In this document: positions 36,732-62,397 of the stretch, piece after piece
Numbering within the stretch: position 1 is the stretch's first letter
How the letters are laid out: each line of letters begins with the position of its first letter
Assembly: GCA_004524445.1 (NCBI GenBank)
Contig: SDNP01000008.1
Coordinates: 1-64,000 of the forward strand
DNA length: 64,000 nucleotides
Source: Candidatus Thorarchaeota archaeon
GTDB taxonomy: Archaea; Asgardarchaeota; Thorarchaeia; Thorarchaeales; Thorarchaeaceae
Direction of reading: 5' to 3'
Program-made: the position numbers and the translations under genes
Notes under the pieces: generated by a model
What the model was told of the DNA's origin: nothing
Database searches by the model: none
The model's input: the letters and a program-made list of their open reading frames with translations, nothing else

Positions 36732-38516
36732 TTAGCAATGACTTGCCACCCGTGAGAATCTGGCACATCCTCTTATCATCATCTCTGTTACTGCTTGACG
36801 AATTCTTGTTGCGTCTGTAAGACCAGCAATTTCTCGGTCACATATTCTTGTTACAGGCAACATTGGCAGGGCTTTCCTATCTAAGTGAACAGATGGGTCA
36901 TCGATATTTATGATCTCAATTGCAGAAGAGCTAATATCAAACAACTCTAAGACACCGACCAAAATATCCAAGGATGGACCGCAAAATAAGCAATGGTCGG
37001 ACATATAAAAGGCAATGCAGGAGTCCCGGCCACACTCTAAAGTCTCATCTTCCTTCCACAGGTCCAACTCGATAGCAATACGGGTTCCGAGAGAAGGTTT
37101 GCCTTCTACTCTATCTTCTACCCAAATTTCTCCCCCAATACTGTGAATAATCGTACGAACAAGGGTCAGACCTAATCCTCTTCCGCCGTTCCTACCTCCT
37201 AAAGACTGCGTTCTATTGAATATGATTCGCTTAAGACTATCAGGTATTCCTGGGCCTTGATCTTCAATCTCAATCCTAACTCTGTCTTTGAAAGTCTTCT
37301 CGTTTACTTCTACTCTGATATTCGTCGCAGTACTGGGATCATGAACAATCGCATTCTCAAGTACATTAAAAAAAACATCTTCCAGGTTCTCGTTTGCAAA
37401 GACCTCCACGCCGTCAATACTACCCTCAAGAGTTATTTCTATATCCTTGTGAACTATCTGGTCTTCTATATGTGAAACCACATTACGTATGCATGATGCT
37501 AGATTTACTGCTTCACGTTTGGGAGGGTGATCTCGAAGCTGATTGAGTTTGCGGAGATTGGATATCATTCTCGCTCCCCTCCTTATCTCCCAGTTCGCTT
37601 CTAGAAGCTTCGTCTTTGCGTCTTGGGGCAGTTTCACAGTTTCCAGAACATATCCGATGGAAAACAAAATACTCTGGTTCACATTATTCAAATCATGGGT
37701 CATTACTTCAGTCCACAGCGCTACTTGCTCTTGGGCAATATTCCTGCTTTCCTCTGCCGTTTTTCTGGCCGTAATATCGACAGCCAGAATATCAATGACC
37801 GGCTTCTGTTCTAAATCAAAATATAGGGCGGTCAAGCTAACCCAAACCGACTCATTATCAGAATTTACAAGCTCGACCTCAATATCCTGAATTTTCTTAC
37901 CCTGAAGCAATTCTCGGATGAGTTGAGACGTAATAGAGTTTTCATTGCCACCTGATCGCTTTATCAGAGGATCGAAGTGCCGTTTTAGAAGATCATCTCT
38001 TTTGTAACCCAATAGTTCAACTGCGGAGGCATTTATATCCTGAATGATCCCCCTCTTACTCAATCTAAAGCTCGGGACGAGGGAGTCGTATATTACGGTT
38101 TCATAATCGGACTTGGATTCTTGATAATCTCGCATGCCCCCACGGAGTTTGATTATGAAGCCATTGTTTGCGTTCAATGAAACAACGGAGCACTCTATAT
38201 CATAAGGCGTAGACGTGCCCTTATACCTAATCATCCTAGCGGCGAGGACATTATCTTTTGATCTGGCAAGATTGGAGAGAAAAGATGCGCCACCTTGGTC
38301 ATGTTTGATTTCCAAATCAATAACATCGAGAATTCTTTTTCCTACCAGTTCATCCCTGGGAACTTCAAGAAATCGCTCAGCAGCGTTATTACATGTGTCA
38401 ATGGTATCTCCATTAATTATCAAAAGGGGTTCATTTGAAAGGTTGAGAATTTTTTGTACGAAGGATTCGCTCTCAAGACTCCATTTCATTTCATGACAAC
38501 CCCTAGCTAGGACCAA
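36732..38516 (-). CDS. PAS-domain histidine kinase with C-terminal thioredoxin/glutaredoxin-like CxxC domain
   Basis: H-box MTHDLNNVNQS; N-box FFNVLENAIVHDP; DQGPGIP; GRGLGLTLV; C-terminal FYMSDHCLFCGPSLDILVGVL...LPMLPVTRICDREIAG. Confidence 0.85.
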   Translation of the reverse strand: MVLARGCHEMKWSLESESFVQKILNLSNEPLLIINGDTIDTCNNAAERFLEVPRDELVGKRILDVIDLEIKHDQGGASFLSNLARSKDNVLAARMIRYKGTSTPYDIECSVVSLNANNGFIIKLRGGMRDYQESKSDYETVIYDSLVPSFRLSKRGIIQDINASAVELLGYKRDDLLKRHFDPLIKRSGGNENSITSQLIRELLQGKKIQDIEVELVNSDNESVWVSLTALYFDLEQKPVIDILAVDITARKTAEESRNIAQEQVALWTEVMTHDLNNVNQSILFSIGYVLETVKLPQDAKTKLLEANWEIRRGARMISNLRKLNQLRDHPPKREAVNLASCIRNVVSHIEDQIVHKDIEITLEGSIDGVEVFANENLEDVFFNVLENAIVHDPSTATNIRVEVNEKTFKDRVRIEIEDQGPGIPDSLKRIIFNRTQSLGGRNGGRGLGLTLVRTIIHSIGGEIWVEDRVEGKPSLGTRIAIELDLWKEDETLECGRDSCIAFYMSDHCLFCGPSLDILVGVLELFDISSSAIEIINIDDPSVHLDRKALPMLPVTRICDREIAGLTDATRIRQAVTEMMIRGCARFSRVASHC

Positions 38517-38720
38517 TCTCTACAGATGTAACCTGAAAAGGTGTTCAACGGGATTCCATCTTTGTTTCTAGTCCTATTCTTCCGCAGGTAATCTTTTCTG
38601 CAAAATCTATGGATATGATTTTTGCGTTAGGTCTATTGGTTTTCCTGACGCATGGATATGTTTATCATTACTCAATAAATTGCATATGTGCTCAAGTATA
38701 CAAGTATAAAACCAAAGAGG

Positions 38721-39032
38721 ATGAGCGTTAGGGAACCCATCAATCTAAGCGAATCAGATATCGAGAATCTTACAAAGGCGTTTCAAATCTTGTCAGGCCC
38801 CTCAAGACCTCGTATCATAGAGATTCTAGCTCAAGATGAGAATATCACCGTGAGCGGGATAGCTAAAGGAGTTAACCTCAGTATTAGTAGTGTTAGTCAT
38901 CAATTGAGTAAACTAAAGGAAAGAGGATTTGTGGGAGCCAAGAAAATAGGTCGAAAAGCAATCTATAGAATTGAAGATGAATGTATTCAGGCCATACTGA
39001 GGAGAGCCACCCCACATGTTAGATATCAGTGA
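38721..39032 (+). CDS. ArsR-family transcriptional regulator
   Basis: PINLSESDIENLTKAFQILSGPSRPRIIEILAQDENITVSGIAKGVNLSISSVSHQLSKLKERGFV; near-duplicate of the gene at 47375. Confidence 0.87.
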   Translation: MSVREPINLSESDIENLTKAFQILSGPSRPRIIEILAQDENITVSGIAKGVNLSISSVSHQLSKLKERGFVGAKKIGRKAIYRIEDECIQAILRRATPHVRYQ

Positions 39033-39303
39033 TACTGCGTGTCAGCACTGCGAAGCAGAGAGAGCTCAACAGCAGGAAATAGACTTCAGGGTCAAGTATG
39101 CCTTGGCACTAATTTCGGACATACCACTTATTGGTGGAACATTGATACAAGTATTCACATCAATAGCATATGTTCCTCCAGTCCTATTTCTGATTTCAAT
39201 ATTCTCTGCAGGTAGATGGATAATTCCCAATGACATTAAGAGCATCATCAGGGTTCATTTGGGCATAACTTTCCTCAGGCTTTCGGCCGCGAGCTCCGCT
39301 TGA
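39016..39303 (+). pseudogene. Truncated P1B-type metal ATPase (N-terminal about 85 aa only)
   Basis: Closely similar to the N-terminus of the intact ATPase at 47662; similarity stops after GITFL (about 39277). Confidence 0.85.
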
Positions 39304-47030: not shown

Positions 47031-47329
47031 TCACAAATATCTTTGCAGGATGACTTCTGTTTTCAAGCAAGCAGTCGGTATTAACATTTCCCAATCACGA
47101 AATCTTGGAGATGAATTTACTACTGTAACCTGACATGCTCATCTCTATGTGTCTTCACCCTCAAACCAAACCAGTGGGCTTCATAACTTGTCACGTATTA
47201 ATTGATATTCCTTTGTAAAAGTGCAGGAGATTGAGTTCCCAAAAGCCTGCTATCTGCTCGCGTATTGGCTTGATATGGCCCCTTCTTCTCCTACTGCACA
47301 GGAATATTTATCATGGCCAAAATATTTGA

Positions 47330-47355
47330 ATATATGCTCAATCATTCACATATAT
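47330..47355. promoter_or_regulatory. Inverted repeat, candidate ArsR operator
   Basis: ATATATG-N12-CATATAT between the TATA-like TTTATCAT and the arsR start; a partly decayed equivalent precedes the 38721 copy. Confidence 0.45.
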
Positions 47356-47374
47356 CACCAGGGAAGAGGAAAGT

Positions 47375-47678
47375 CATGGAACCCATCAACCTAACTGAAT
47401 CAGATATAGAAGAGCTGTCGAAGGTGTTTCAAACGCTATCAGACCCATCGAGACTGCGCATTATAGAGATTCTGACACAAGATGAAAATATCACCGTAAG
47501 CGAAATAGCTGAAAGAGTGAATCTGAGTGTTAGCAGTGTTAGCCATCAATTGAGCAAACTAAAGGATAGAGGATTTGTGGGAGCCAAGAAGATAGGTCGA
47601 AAAGCAATCTATAGAGTCAAAGATGATTGTATTTATTCCATATTAAGGAGAGCAACTGTGCATGTTAGAGATCAGTGA
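47375..47678 (+). CDS. ArsR-family transcriptional regulator
   Basis: MEPINLTESDIEELSKVFQTLSDPSRLRIIEILTQDENITVSEIAERVNLSVSSVSHQLSKLKDRGFVG. Confidence 0.9.
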
Positions 47679-49584
47679 AACGGCGTGCCAGCATTGCGAA
47701 GCTGAGAGAGCTCAACGTGAAGAAATAGACTTCAGAGTCAAGTATGCCTTGGCACTGATATCGGGCATGTCACTCATTGGTGGTATATTGATAGATGTAT
47801 TCACATCAATAGGATATGTTCCTGTGATCCTATTTCTGATTTCAATACTCTCCGCGGGCAGGTGGATAATTCCAAATGGTATAAGAAGTATCATCAAGGT
47901 CCATCTGGGCATAACTTTCCTCATGACTGTTGCGGCAATCGGGGCAGTTCTAATAGGAGAACCAGCAGAGGGTGCAGCTGTGATGTTTCTGTTTTATCTT
48001 GCTGAAATACTAGAAGAGAAAGCTGGGGATAGAGCTAGAACGGAAATACAAAGTCTAATGGAACTAGAACCCCCTTCAGTTACGGTTATGGAGGATGGTC
48101 AGGAAGTATACAAATCCCCAGATGGTGTGAAAATAGGAGAAAAAATCGTCATTAAACCGGGCGATAGAATTGGAATGGACGGGGTGGTGGTAAAGGGAGA
48201 ATCACATGTAAATCAAGCATCAATCACTGGCGAGTCCAAACCTGTGCGCAAAGTCGTCGGAAATCAAGCATATGCAGGCACCCTAAATCAGGAAGGCTAT
48301 TTGGAGATAAAAGTCACAAAAGAGGCAAAGAATACATTACTGGCAAAAATCGTCGAAACTGTCAAAGGTGCACGAGAGAAAAAGGCGAAAACAGAGAGAT
48401 TTGTTTCAAGATTCTCGCACTATTATACTCCCGTAGTTGTTCTTGGTTCTTTTCTATTGGGGCTCGGAACATTCCTCCTTGGAGCTGGGATAGTAGCGGC
48501 TGTATACAGAGCACTAACACTGCTGGTGATTTCTTGTCCATGTGCATTTGCCCTATCAATTCCCGTTAGCATGGTGTCAACAATAGCGGGATCTGCCCGT
48601 GAAGGAATTCTCGTGAAGGGTGGAGAGTACATAGAGGCAACAAGTAAAGCGAAAACTGTCGTCTTTGACAAAACTGGAACACTAACAGAAGGTAAGCTTC
48701 GAGTCAGCAATATTTGTGTCCATAATCAAAATGATAAGACCGATGTCTTGAGAGTAGCATCGTCACTTGAGCAGTACTCTGAGCATCCAATTGCAAAAGC
48801 AATAATGGAAGAAACAGAGAATAGTCAAGCAAAAGTTCCACCTGCAGACACCTTTTCATCCGTGCCGGGAAAAGGCATAGTTGGAACATACAGTAGCTCA
48901 GATTACGCAGTGGGTAGTCGACAACTCATGGAAGATGAAGGGGTGGTCTTGGTCAATCAAGAAACTCATTCATGTGGACAAGGTACCCTTGTGTATGTAT
49001 CTCAAGATGGGAAGCACATTGGTACATTGGTCCTCAAGGACATCTTGCGACCCAGTGCTAAGGTGGCGATTGACCAGCTGAAAGGAAAGGGGATCAAGAC
49101 AGTAATACTGACCGGAGATAACCAGGAAGTCGCTCAAAGCGTTTCAGCTGAGGTCGGAGCTGATGACTTCAAAGCTAATATGCTACCAAATGAGAAAGTT
49201 GAGGCTGTTAAGGAAATCAGAAGAAATGGTACGGTGATTATGGTCGGTGACGGCGTTAATGACGCGCCAGCTTTAGCCACTGCGGATGTGGGCATAGCGA
49301 TGGGCGCAATATCTAGTGATGTGGCCATAGAAACAGCTGATATTGCTTTGATGGATACTGATCTTACCAAGGTTCCTTTACTCATTGAAAGAGCGAAACG
49401 GACCATGAGTATTGTTCGGAACAATGTTGGTCTATCAATTAGCTTGAAGGCAGTTCTGGGGTCTCTGTCCATATTGGGCTTAATGAGTCTCTGGCTTGCT
49501 ATAGCACTGGGAGACATGGGCCTCACAATGCTAGTTATTGCTAATGCATTCAGGCTCACTATGAAGACGAAAAGCACTGCGTAA
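47662..49584 (+). CDS. P1B-type heavy-metal ATPase, probable Zn/Cd class
   Basis: SCPCAFALSIPV; DKTGTLTEGK; SEHPIAKAI; GDGVNDAPAL; late TM motif GDMGLTMLVIANAFRLT. Confidence 0.92.
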   Translation: MLEISETACQHCEAERAQREEIDFRVKYALALISGMSLIGGILIDVFTSIGYVPVILFLISILSAGRWIIPNGIRSIIKVHLGITFLMTVAAIGAVLIGEPAEGAAVMFLFYLAEILEEKAGDRARTEIQSLMELEPPSVTVMEDGQEVYKSPDGVKIGEKIVIKPGDRIGMDGVVVKGESHVNQASITGESKPVRKVVGNQAYAGTLNQEGYLEIKVTKEAKNTLLAKIVETVKGAREKKAKTERFVSRFSHYYTPVVVLGSFLLGLGTFLLGAGIVAAVYRALTLLVISCPCAFALSIPVSMVSTIAGSAREGILVKGGEYIEATSKAKTVVFDKTGTLTEGKLRVSNICVHNQNDKTDVLRVASSLEQYSEHPIAKAIMEETENSQAKVPPADTFSSVPGKGIVGTYSSSDYAVGSRQLMEDEGVVLVNQETHSCGQGTLVYVSQDGKHIGTLVLKDILRPSAKVAIDQLKGKGIKTVILTGDNQEVAQSVSAEVGADDFKANMLPNEKVEAVKEIRRNGTVIMVGDGVNDAPALATADVGIAMGAISSDVAIETADIALMDTDLTKVPLLIERAKRTMSIVRNNVGLSISLKAVLGSLSILGLMSLWLAIALGDMGLTMLVIANAFRLTMKTKSTA

Positions 49585-57535: not shown

Positions 57536-59053
57536 TTGACTGTACAGAACATAACACTCAAAATCAATACGAGCAAGCGTCGATTTAGCTATGACTCGGA
57601 GAACAATTCCATGTTTGTGAAGACAGATAGAAAGGAACTAACGAGCATCGGTGTAGACATCGGGTCATCTACATCGCATGTTGTCTTCAGTAAGATCATA
57701 TTAGAAAAAGACATTAAAAGCCGCACCGAGAAATTCGAGATTGTAGACAAGGAAGTTATTTTCTCCGGACCAATACATTTGACACCATTCAAAGATGCTC
57801 ACACTATTGACTATGTTGCGCTTCAGAATCTCCTATTGTCTGACTATAAGGCAGCGGGCATGTCTATAGGGGATATCGACACAGGAGCGGTCATTATTAC
57901 GGGAGAGAGTGCCAAGAAGCAAAATGCAGAACAAATTGTGGAGATGCTAGCAGGAGAAGCAGGCAAATTCGTTGCAGCAACTGCGGGTCCGAATTTTGAG
58001 TCAGTGCTGGCAGCTCATGGTTCTGGAGCAATCGCCTTGTCGGAGGAGTCAGGTTTGACTGTGATGAATATAGACATTGGAGGTGGCTCTTCTAACATAG
58101 CTATTTGTAGAAACGGGAAAATAACTGATACTGGTGCCATCAATGTAGGAGGGCGACTTGTAGCTTTTGAAAAGGATGACATCATTACACGATTGGAGGA
58201 AACCGGCAGAAAAATAGGAGAGGTCATAGGTGTTGATTTACAACTAGGCTCCAGACTTGATGACAGCCAAAAACGGCATTTGGCGAAAACTCTCGCTGAG
58301 GCTCTTGTCGATACTCTTACGGGAAAACCCAATAACCCAGTTTCGGAAATGCTATTGATGACAGAACCTCTACCTGAGCACAATCATGTCGATATCATCA
58401 CATTTTCTGGCGGAGTAGCTGAATTCATCTACGGAAGGGAAAAGCAGGAATACAACGATATTGGAAAAGAGCTTGCAGATGCGATCATTGGCCTCATGCA
58501 GGAGAAGGGTCTACAATATCAGGAGCCGGCACAACGCATTCGTGCAACAGTCATTGGAGCTGGTCAATTTAGTCTTAGAGTCAGTGGTTCAACAACTTTC
58601 CTATCCTCAGGCATTGAGTATCCGATTAGAAATCTACCAGCTGTTATTCCCTACGTTGAGAAAGGCACAACACGGAGGAACGAAGTGACTAGAGCACTAC
58701 GGCGCGCTTTTCAGCGCTTTGATTTGGTCGAGGGAGAGGACCCATTCATTTTGACTTTCAGAGATGCAGTTCGTCCATCCTATGATAATCTATGCGAATT
58801 TGCCCATGGCGTTGTGAATGCATTACCGAATACAGTAAGGAAAAATGAACCGATTATGATGTGTTTCGACACGGATGTGGGAAACAGCGTCGGAAATGTC
58901 ATGAAACGTGAAACTGCCATTACCAACGAAATCTTGGCTATTGATGAAATTTCTCTTGAAGAGGGTGATTTTATTGATATCGGAGAACCAATCATTGAAG
59001 GGGTCGTTGTACCGGTTATTGTGAAGACATTGATTTTCGATTCCAAGCAATGA
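57536..59053 (+). CDS. EutA-like ethanolamine ammonia-lyase reactivating factor
   Basis: TSIGVDIGSSTSHVVFSKI; VIITGESAKKQNAEQIVEMLAGEAGKFVAATAGPNFESVLAAHGSGA; TTG start or ATG at about 57611. Confidence 0.85.
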   Translation: MTVQNITLKINTSKRRFSYDSENNSMFVKTDRKELTSIGVDIGSSTSHVVFSKIILEKDIKSRTEKFEIVDKEVIFSGPIHLTPFKDAHTIDYVALQNLLLSDYKAAGMSIGDIDTGAVIITGESAKKQNAEQIVEMLAGEAGKFVAATAGPNFESVLAAHGSGAIALSEESGLTVMNIDIGGGSSNIAICRNGKITDTGAINVGGRLVAFEKDDIITRLEETGRKIGEVIGVDLQLGSRLDDSQKRHLAKTLAEALVDTLTGKPNNPVSEMLLMTEPLPEHNHVDIITFSGGVAEFIYGREKQEYNDIGKELADAIIGLMQEKGLQYQEPAQRIRATVIGAGQFSLRVSGSTTFLSSGIEYPIRNLPAVIPYVEKGTTRRNEVTRALRRAFQRFDLVEGEDPFILTFRDAVRPSYDNLCEFAHGVVNALPNTVRKNEPIMMCFDTDVGNSVGNVMKRETAITNEILAIDEISLEEGDFIDIGEPIIEGVVVPVIVKTLIFDSKQ

Positions 59054-60645: not shown

Positions 60646-62397
60646 TTATTCAGCTGCCATCATCATCAGTCTTACGATTTCCTGACGCATGTCCTGTTCA
60701 GGTACGTATCCCGCCAGTCTACGACTTCCCAATTGTATTGCGGGTAATGCCGGTAGGGCATCTTCTGAAATGCCTGCGTCTGGGTCTTCCACATCCACAA
60801 CTCTGATGGTCGACCTACTGATGCCCATATCATCCAGAACTGATGTTAGAGTGTCCAATACTGGGTCACAGAATACACAATGCTGGGATTTGTAAAATGT
60901 GATAGGCGGGATTTGTAGTTGTTCTTGCCATCGTGGCAGAACGAGAATAAACTTACTACCCTTTGATGAATCTCCTGGTATCCGGTCTTCCACCCAGACC
61001 CTTCCTCCGAGGTCTGAAACATATCTATCAACAACTGTCAAACCCAAACCTTTTCCTGGGGAGCCAGCCTCAGCAATACTTTCTCTCTTGAATACATGTG
61101 GCTTACGGTCATCAGGTATGCCGGGTCCTCGATCTGCGAATTCTAGACGTACTTCACGACCCATATCGACAATACTCGCATTAACATCGACTCGTACTTT
61201 CTTGCTCGGGTCATATATCATGGCATTGTGAAGAATATTGAAGAAAATACTCCAGAGAAACATATCGCCAAGGACTTCCAAAGACTCCTCTCCAATATTT
61301 GTGCTGATATCTAGGTCCTTCCATTCAAAATCGCGGTCGACCTCAGTTGCTGCCCTGTTGAAGTGTGTACTTACTCTTGTCTTAACTCGGTCAGGAGGAC
61401 TTCTTGCAAGTTTAAAGAGAACCTCCATATTGGCAATCATACGCGATGATCTTCGAATATCCCATGCCGTTTCGTTGATGAGTTCGAGTTCTTCTTCAGG
61501 GAGATCCAAAGACACTTTCAGATTTTCAAGTGCAAAGAGAGCGCTTTGATTAATAATATTCAAGTCACTTGTCATAAGCCCAAGATAGAGGTCTGCTCTC
61601 TCTCTTTCTTCTCTGAGTCGATCCTCAGCTAGCTTTCTCCTAGTGATGTCTACTGCCATTAGGCCTATCTCACGAGGCTTTTCAGAGCCCGGGGTAAGTG
61701 AACTAGAGGAGATGGAAGCCCAAATGGGACGCTTATCCGAGCGGACCATCTCCACTTCTAGGGCATTCACCGTCCGCCCTCTGGAAACTTCTGTCAAGAT
61801 GTCTCCAGCTGGGTCATATTCTTCCGTTTTCTCTAGGAAAAGGGTCGAAAAATTAGCCCCAATAAGCCTATCTGCCGTGTAACCAAAGAGTTCTTCTGCT
61901 GCTTTGTTTACCTGCTCGATTATACCTTCACGGTTCAATGTCAGGTAGGCAATGGGCGACAAGTCGTAAAGATTCGCAAATCTGTTTTCTAATTCAAGAA
62001 CAGTTTCCTCAAGAGCAATTTGTCCGGTTACATTATTTACAGAAATCAGAACAGCATCAGCACCATCGAAATTAACAATGCGGGGGTTGATTTCTACATG
62101 TAACAAGTCGCCATGTTTTGTCCTTAACCGGGTATTAAACGCTTCAACATCATCCGCGTCCGCAAGGGCATCTAGTAGGTTCCTATGGTGCTTACGGGAT
62201 AAAGAATCTACAAGATTTTCAAATGGCATGAAAATGAGGTCATCCTTCTGGTATCCTATCATTGCAGAGAAAACAGAATTTGCATCAACTATCTCGTTGT
62301 CTTGCAACACGACAATTCCATCGGTTACAATCTCGAGAATGTTATGTAGCCATTCAGTTTCCTTCTCATCATCTGGCAAAGATAGACCTCTTGTCAC
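60646..62397 (-). CDS. PAS-domain sensor kinase-like protein with C-terminal thioredoxin-like CxxC domain; phospho-acceptor His replaced by Ser
   Basis: PAS repeats; MTSDLNIINQS aligns to MTHDLNNVNQS of the paralogue; N-box FFNILHNAMIYDP; DRGPGIP; GKGLGLTVV; C-terminal FYKSQHCVFCDPVLDTLTSVL...LPALPAIQLGSRRLAGYV. Confidence 0.82.
   Translation of the reverse strand: MTRGLSLPDDEKETEWLHNILEIVTDGIVVLQDNEIVDANSVFSAMIGYQKDDLIFMPFENLVDSLSRKHHRNLLDALADADDVEAFNTRLRTKHGDLLHVEINPRIVNFDGADAVLISVNNVTGQIALEETVLELENRFANLYDLSPIAYLTLNREGIIEQVNKAAEELFGYTADRLIGANFSTLFLEKTEEYDPAGDILTEVSRGRTVNALEVEMVRSDKRPIWASISSSSLTPGSEKPREIGLMAVDITRRKLAEDRLREERERADLYLGLMTSDLNIINQSALFALENLKVSLDLPEEELELINETAWDIRRSSRMIANMEVLFKLARSPPDRVKTRVSTHFNRAATEVDRDFEWKDLDISTNIGEESLEVLGDMFLWSIFFNILHNAMIYDPSKKVRVDVNASIVDMGREVRLEFADRGPGIPDDRKPHVFKRESIAEAGSPGKGLGLTVVDRYVSDLGGRVWVEDRIPGDSSKGSKFILVLPRWQEQLQIPPITFYKSQHCVFCDPVLDTLTSVLDDMGISRSTIRVVDVEDPDAGISEDALPALPAIQLGSRRLAGYVPEQDMRQEIVRLMMMAAE

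Follow-up and report, generated by a model that had tools for sequence, protein, structure and literature searches.

The window, that is, the whole 64,000-nucleotide stretch analyzed, lies on one contig of a Candidatus Thorarchaeota genome (2.79 Mb, 64 contigs). An open reading frame with a GTG start on its reverse strand encodes a 583-residue protein, assigned here to group B of a kinase family, and a sibling assigned to group A aligns with it over its whole length (31% identity, E = 6e-83) (Table 1). Pfam identified two PAS domains and a HATPase_c domain (E = 9.3e-18) in the group B protein and gave no HisKA match in either paralogue. A full-length AlphaFold model, built from an alignment of 39 family members (mean pLDDT 86.9, pTM 0.56), places the two PAS domains, a long two-helix hairpin, the HATPase domain, and a β-α-β-β-β-α tail in that order, with the DHp helices at residues 252–296 and 301–332. 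No membrane segment is apparent in the protein.

Table 1. Features of the group B gene and its group A sibling in the window
Feature	Position	Strand	Basis
Group B pseudo-histidine kinase, PAS-PAS-DHp-HATPase-thioredoxin fold, 583 aa	60646..62397	-	ORF, Pfam, AlphaFold
PAS domain 1, residues 10-122	62032..62370	-	Pfam PAS matches, AlphaFold model
PAS domain 2, residues 147-250	61648..61959	-	Pfam PAS_9 E 7.9e-23, best stretch 150-252
DHp two-helix hairpin, residues 252-334	61396..61644	-	AlphaFold helices and alignment to group A
Ser277 codon AGT, phospho-acceptor position	61567..61569	-	His in 35/35 group A proteins
Ile281 codon, H+4 (phosphatase Asn) position	61555..61557	-	34/35 A and 0/30 B proteins have Asn
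HATPase_c (CA) domain, residues 338-490	60928..61386	-	Pfam HATPase_c E 9.3e-18
Predicted thioredoxin-fold tail, residues 499-582	60652..60903	-	Profile, AlphaFold, fold search
CVFC (CxxC) motif, residues 507-510	60868..60879	-	Invariant, 65/65
cis-Pro position P552	60742..60744	-	Invariant, 65/65
Group A sibling, His-bearing kinase, same architecture, six-cysteine tail	36732..38516	-	ORF, alignment, Pfam

A sequence-only reading of the window had proposed that the protein is a pseudokinase or a regulator of the sibling kinase, with a lost acceptor histidine, a retained ATP site, and a redox tail. The motifs on which it relied are present as described: the H-box MTSDLNIINQS (MTHDLNNVNQS in the sibling), the N-box FFNILHNAMIYDP, G1 (DRGPGIP), G2 (GKGLGLTVV), and the tail HCVFC...ALPALPAIQL, where P552, the second Pro of LPALP, falls on the cis-Pro of thioredoxins in the alignment. 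The AGT serine codon on the minus strand was also identified correctly, although its position, given as near 61574, was off by a few bases (Table 1).

The 47 genomes searched for homologues belong to the same family of Asgard archaea, and most contain full-length copies; a search at the level of the order gave the identical 47 genomes. The alignment of 65 full-length or near-full-length proteins splits into two paralogous groups, A (n = 35, 13 genera) and B (n = 30, 8 genera). The acceptor position is His in every group A protein, including the sibling, and in no group B protein, where it is occupied by Ser (19, with the window protein among them), Gln (7), Asn (2), Arg (1), or Lys (1). The loss of the acceptor His is therefore common to the orthologues, and Ser itself to 19 of the 30. 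In a full-length maximum-likelihood (ML) tree computed with the acceptor site removed, group B lies beyond a single branch (SH-aLRT 99), and the group B branch has an SH-aLRT of 85 in a kinase-core ML tree rooted by four other kinases of the genome. Group A is paraphyletic in the rooted core tree, but the AU test does not reject monophyly of A (p = 0.56). Where H-boxes were read in other kinases of the window genome, all four have His followed by Asp. Together with the trees, this suggests most simply that His was ancestral and was lost once, in group B. A GTDB contig scan with the window protein as query returned solely a remote bacterial kinase, matching outside the tail. One group A gene found in a genome of genus g9 (L039, G028:C187) is near-identical to g13 copies and is probably assembly contamination.

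In the HisKA motif H-E/D-x-x-T/N, the acidic residue serves the kinase reaction and Thr or Asn at H+4 the phosphatase reaction (PMC3510030). The group A motif is H-D-x-x-N, with Asn at H+4 in 34 of 35 proteins. Group B keeps the acidic H+1 residue throughout (30/30) and nowhere has Asn at H+4 (0/30), where M, S, I, L, V, R, E, or Y is found; the window protein reads SDLNI, with the acidic residue present and both His and Asn gone. At the level of sequence, group B has no His that could carry phosphate and, under the HisKA rule, would lack phosphatase activity. The nucleotide site has fared differently among lineages. The N-box Asn that aligns with that of HK853, which we take to be the Mg-binding Asn of the ATP site, is present in 35/35 group A proteins and 14/30 of group B; it is Tyr, Phe, or His in genus g9, all of whose group B copies lack the Asn, and Ser in L036. 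The G1 and G2 glycines are partly gone in several group B lineages. The ATP motifs are intact in the g13 group and in the window copy (N391, D422, G424, G426, G448, G450, and G452), so the claim of a retained ATP site was accurate for this protein but does not extend to the group. Because 16 of 30 members lack the Mg-binding Asn and several lack G1 or G2 glycines, ATP binding cannot be the feature that selection keeps throughout group B. Phosphate chemistry was lost first and group-wide, and erosion of the nucleotide site has followed.

Other features of group B are strictly kept. R315, R319, and N323 in the second helix, the CxxC motif, P552, and G563 are each found in 30/30 proteins. By Nei-Gojobori counts on closely related pairs in which dS is not saturated, dN/dS over the whole protein is about 0.06–0.15 in group B and about 0.04–0.10 in group A, and domain-level dN in group B is well below dS, including in the DHp, CA (HATPase), and tail regions. 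No other conserved His was found in the group B dimerization helices (the best column has 4/30, and the window copy has none). Residues conserved specifically in group B, including H345, E352, R355, W382, and F385, cluster on the first helix and the N-box helix of the HATPase domain; H345, on the first HATPase helix in the AlphaFold model, is invariant in the group. Such residues are as expected if the HATPase fold now serves as an interaction surface. Since the His loss, the CxxC, and the cis-Pro are common to all 30 orthologues, a strain-specific error or chance does not account for the lost His, and the invariance of CxxC and cis-Pro together with the low dN/dS makes it very probable, from these sequences, that group B is a functional pseudokinase rather than a decaying gene. 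The earlier assignment as a pseudokinase thus gains an ancient, group-wide loss of both acceptor His and phosphatase Asn under purifying selection.

The tail is predicted to adopt a thioredoxin fold by sequence profile, AlphaFold, and fold search, as had been proposed. A profile built from 38 sequences, tails together with related stand-alone proteins, matched archaeal thioredoxins first (1fo5, E = 5.4e-9; 1nho, E = 4.8e-6). These best solved-structure matches share the fold with CxxC and cis-Pro but are stand-alone proteins and lack the four further cysteines found in group A tails. AlphaFold modeled a group A tail with a mean pLDDT of 87, and Foldseek with the tail model placed thioredoxins on top at a probability of 1.00, with TM scores of 0.5–0.7 and E-values above 0.001. 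Pfam gave no match for the window tail alone, and 23 of 38 family members match Glrx-like weakly. Fold, CxxC, and cis-Pro of the proposed redox tail are upheld as predictions, the two motifs being invariant in 65/65 proteins of groups A and B; a CxxC tail is not peculiar to the pseudokinase, as the His-bearing sibling has one too. From the conserved residues and the models, the group B tail is likely to be redox-responsive. Among the matches listed in a phylum-wide tail search (231 genomes), frames of kinase length come from family f1 alone, and no fusion outside the family was seen among them.

Group A tails contain four further cysteines, each in 35/35 proteins, located in a CGxxxC motif before the first strand, at column 557 (the end of the third strand), and at column 582 (near the C terminus). 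All four are present in 7/30 group B proteins (L037 and the six Q-type copies of g13), and 23/30 lack all four; this all-or-none pattern suggests that they form one site, binding a metal or forming disulfides. In the thioredoxin topology, strand 1 begins beside the end of strand 3 and at a distance from the CxxC, and the site in group A would be placed there. The six-cysteine signature also occurs in most of the stand-alone family proteins of 110–150 residues that were read. The domain, CGxxxC...CxxC...IC...C[FY], forms the C-terminal ~100 amino acids of the sibling and recurs at L082:3165-3491 and in L126-L143. The stand-alone thioredoxin-like gene of L082 adjoins a flavodoxin-like gene; another, in L083:1-3446, adjoins a roadblock-like gene, near which a Rab-like GTPase and a WD40 protein are encoded. 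In the window genome itself, genes for a Rab-like GTPase and a WD40 protein cluster with a roadblock-like gene (family names by eye), and a profilin match is found (0/14 control genomes match); together these mark the genome as that of an Asgard archaeon.

Every genus with group B also has group A (8/8), and five genera have A only. The two genes are not in one operon; in eight genomes (from g1, g4, and g9) they share a contig and a strand at a spacing of ~17–24 kb, and elsewhere they are 80–110 kb apart or on different contigs. Six genomes (84–92% complete) have B without a detected A, where about three would be expected from incompleteness. No response regulator was found near A or B in the window genome. 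Some g8 and g9 genomes have a REC-containing gene, and one g4 genome a stand-alone receiver, either near A or in the interval from A to B, so a receiver is no constant partner. In g9, a gene between A and B (L103:13117-14037, L105:12314-12979) encodes a short protein that combines REC with a DHp-like His motif but has no HATPase domain, and adjoins a multi-PAS kinase. The window genome has four receiver domains, three in short stand-alone proteins and one in a protein of 206 residues that has a hydrophobic region at its N terminus; two of the four, half of the genome's total, are tandem stand-alone receivers (G000:C21:18716-19452; L122, L124). With only these four receivers, of these types, no direct transcriptional response regulator for A is evident.

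In the window, the gene directly downstream of B is TrmO-like, as it is in several other genomes. A functional link of B with the upstream hdrA/mvhD-like genes was considered and rejected, as these neighbors are not conserved in the other genomes examined. In many genomes, A adjoins genes for an ArsR-type regulator and a P1B metal ATPase, with a DsrE-like gene near, and these neighbors make metal or sulfur stress a candidate input for A. In the window, the ArsR-type gene beside A is followed by a 95-aa P1B metal ATPase remnant (38688–39303), and a second ArsR gene with a full 640-aa P1B ATPase lies 8 kb off (47313–49584); the two pairs are an apparent duplication, now separated by genes of hdrA-like, ferredoxin, and aldehyde-oxidoreductase-like type. 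Farther along, a EutA-type reactivating factor (57536–59053; Pfam EutA, E = 3.7e-141) is encoded between nitroreductase-like and GNAT-like genes, with no other eut gene recognized beside it.

On balance, sequence, models, and analogy lead us to lean toward the view that group B, one half of a duplicated pair of Asgard kinases, is a soluble sensor pseudokinase that acts by contact, with a redox tail and with A or a shared receiver as its partner. Its two PAS domains would feed the dimerizing hairpin and HATPase fold, and PAS ligands and the thiol/disulfide state of the CxxC would set the conformation of both. B would then bind a partner and tune it, in the way that DivL, RocA, or NifL act; the likeliest candidates are the active sibling A and a response regulator of the single-domain type shared with it. 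ATP could be a further input in the window species, and g9 group B proteins are probably unable to bind it. That B regulates A in particular is plausible given the presence of A in every genus with B and their frequent spacing of 17–24 kb, but we put this only tentatively, since the same-genus resemblance of DHp regions predicted by a heterodimer was not seen: same-genus A-B pairs are no more alike there than cross-genus pairs (permutation p = 0.52). A small same-genus excess in PAS2, the tail, and the whole protein (p about 0.02, uncorrected, nine tests) is not counted as evidence.

Several other roles for B were weighed. The protein could be the trans-kinase half of an A:B heterodimer, its ATP-loaded HATPase domain phosphorylating the His of A so that B needs none of its own. 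The intact ATP motifs of the window copy and the g13 group and the acidic H+1 residue of all group B proteins fit such a role, but it is made unlikely by the missing DHp coevolution and by the 16 of 30 copies, including all from g9, whose genes persist under purifying selection without the N-box Asn. Comparably unlikely is that B works alone as a thiol-disulfide oxidoreductase or a thiol-sensing adaptor for non-signaling partners, with the kinase core as a dimer scaffold. In its favor, few features are kept as strictly as the CxxC and cis-Pro, and the tail has stand-alone thioredoxin-like relatives, one of which is encoded next to a flavodoxin gene; purifying selection on the PAS, DHp, and HATPase domains of B, with conserved HATPase residues of its own, argues that the core does more than hold the tail. 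A and B might also form a redox-coupled pair in which the CxxC of B exchanges disulfides with the A tail, the four extra cysteines of A providing a second site, for a metal or a disulfide, apart from the CxxC. Such an arrangement is rather improbable; if it held, a dead paralogue would be the redox input of a live kinase, a two-component wiring that was not found described.

The remaining alternatives fall on the orthologue data. A phosphatase-only state is a possible fate for kinases that no longer autophosphorylate, and B might drain phosphate from the response regulator of A. HisKA phosphatase activity requires Thr/Asn at H+4 (PMC3510030), and all 30 group B proteins have another residue there, which rules against this role and leaves it very little probability. 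Phosphorylation of Ser277, or of another His in place of the lost one, has still less. Ser is the commonest residue at the site, yet other lineages have Q, N, R, or K there, on which ground Ser277 is rejected as a substitute acceptor, the DHp has no conserved His column, and the invariant H345 sits on the first HATPase helix in the model. As for a decaying duplicate or an assembly error, catalytic residues have been progressively lost in some lineages (as in L036), but full-length frames in 30 orthologues from eight genera, with dN/dS as given above, refute this reading, to which we attach almost no weight.

Pseudo-histidine kinases are already known, including one from an Asgard archaeon, whereas a histidine kinase with a C-terminal thioredoxin fold was not found described in the open-access literature, which omits most subscription journals. 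About 1% of histidine kinases lack the His, and DivL of Caulobacter steers the kinase CckA by contact (PMC5361649). DivL resembles B in joining PAS sensors to a histidine-kinase fold with a replaced acceptor His, and the group A core profile matches its structure (4q20, E = 3.7e-11). To our knowledge, DivL has no thioredoxin tail; it further differs in having Tyr at the acceptor site, in working through DivK, and in being bacterial. The likeness is that of the kinase fold. Azotobacter NifL has a PAS-PAS-kinase-like layout and controls its partner by binding. NifL (9qq6) was the second-best fold match of the full model and matched the core profile with E = 3.2e-13, a likeness of architecture and fold similarity alone. 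It senses redox with FAD and targets NifA, unlike B, and we know of no CxxC tail in it.

NifL is a flavoprotein, and the chloroplast sensor kinase CSK binds ATP and does not autophosphorylate in vitro (PMC5054060). CSK is, like B, a modified, soluble, redox-linked histidine kinase, but it is quinone-linked, and a thioredoxin domain is not described in that source. Pairing with an active kinase, as proposed for B, is documented for two pseudokinases: RocA pulls down with CovS (PMC7028121), and a ChrS pseudokinase variant heterodimerizes with its paralogue HrrS (PMC9491836). Both are bacterial membrane proteins with no redox tail, and the ChrS variant came from laboratory evolution. The Lokiarchaeal protein KKK40347.1 is an Asgard histidine kinase reported without the catalytic His (PMC10343646); at 39 kDa, with no PAS domain or thioredoxin tail listed, it differs from B and was mentioned in passing without orthologue analysis. 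Few histidine-kinase pseudokinases have been studied, and Asgard archaeal signaling has been little studied. Alongside these systems, group B offers a loss that is apparently single and ancient, together with a paralogue intact in each of its genera and a predicted fused thiol-redox domain. Comparison of the two paralogues makes it testable what selection keeps in a pseudo-histidine kinase, and group B set against group A suggests that the dimer hairpin and redox tail stay while phosphate chemistry goes first and the nucleotide site later.
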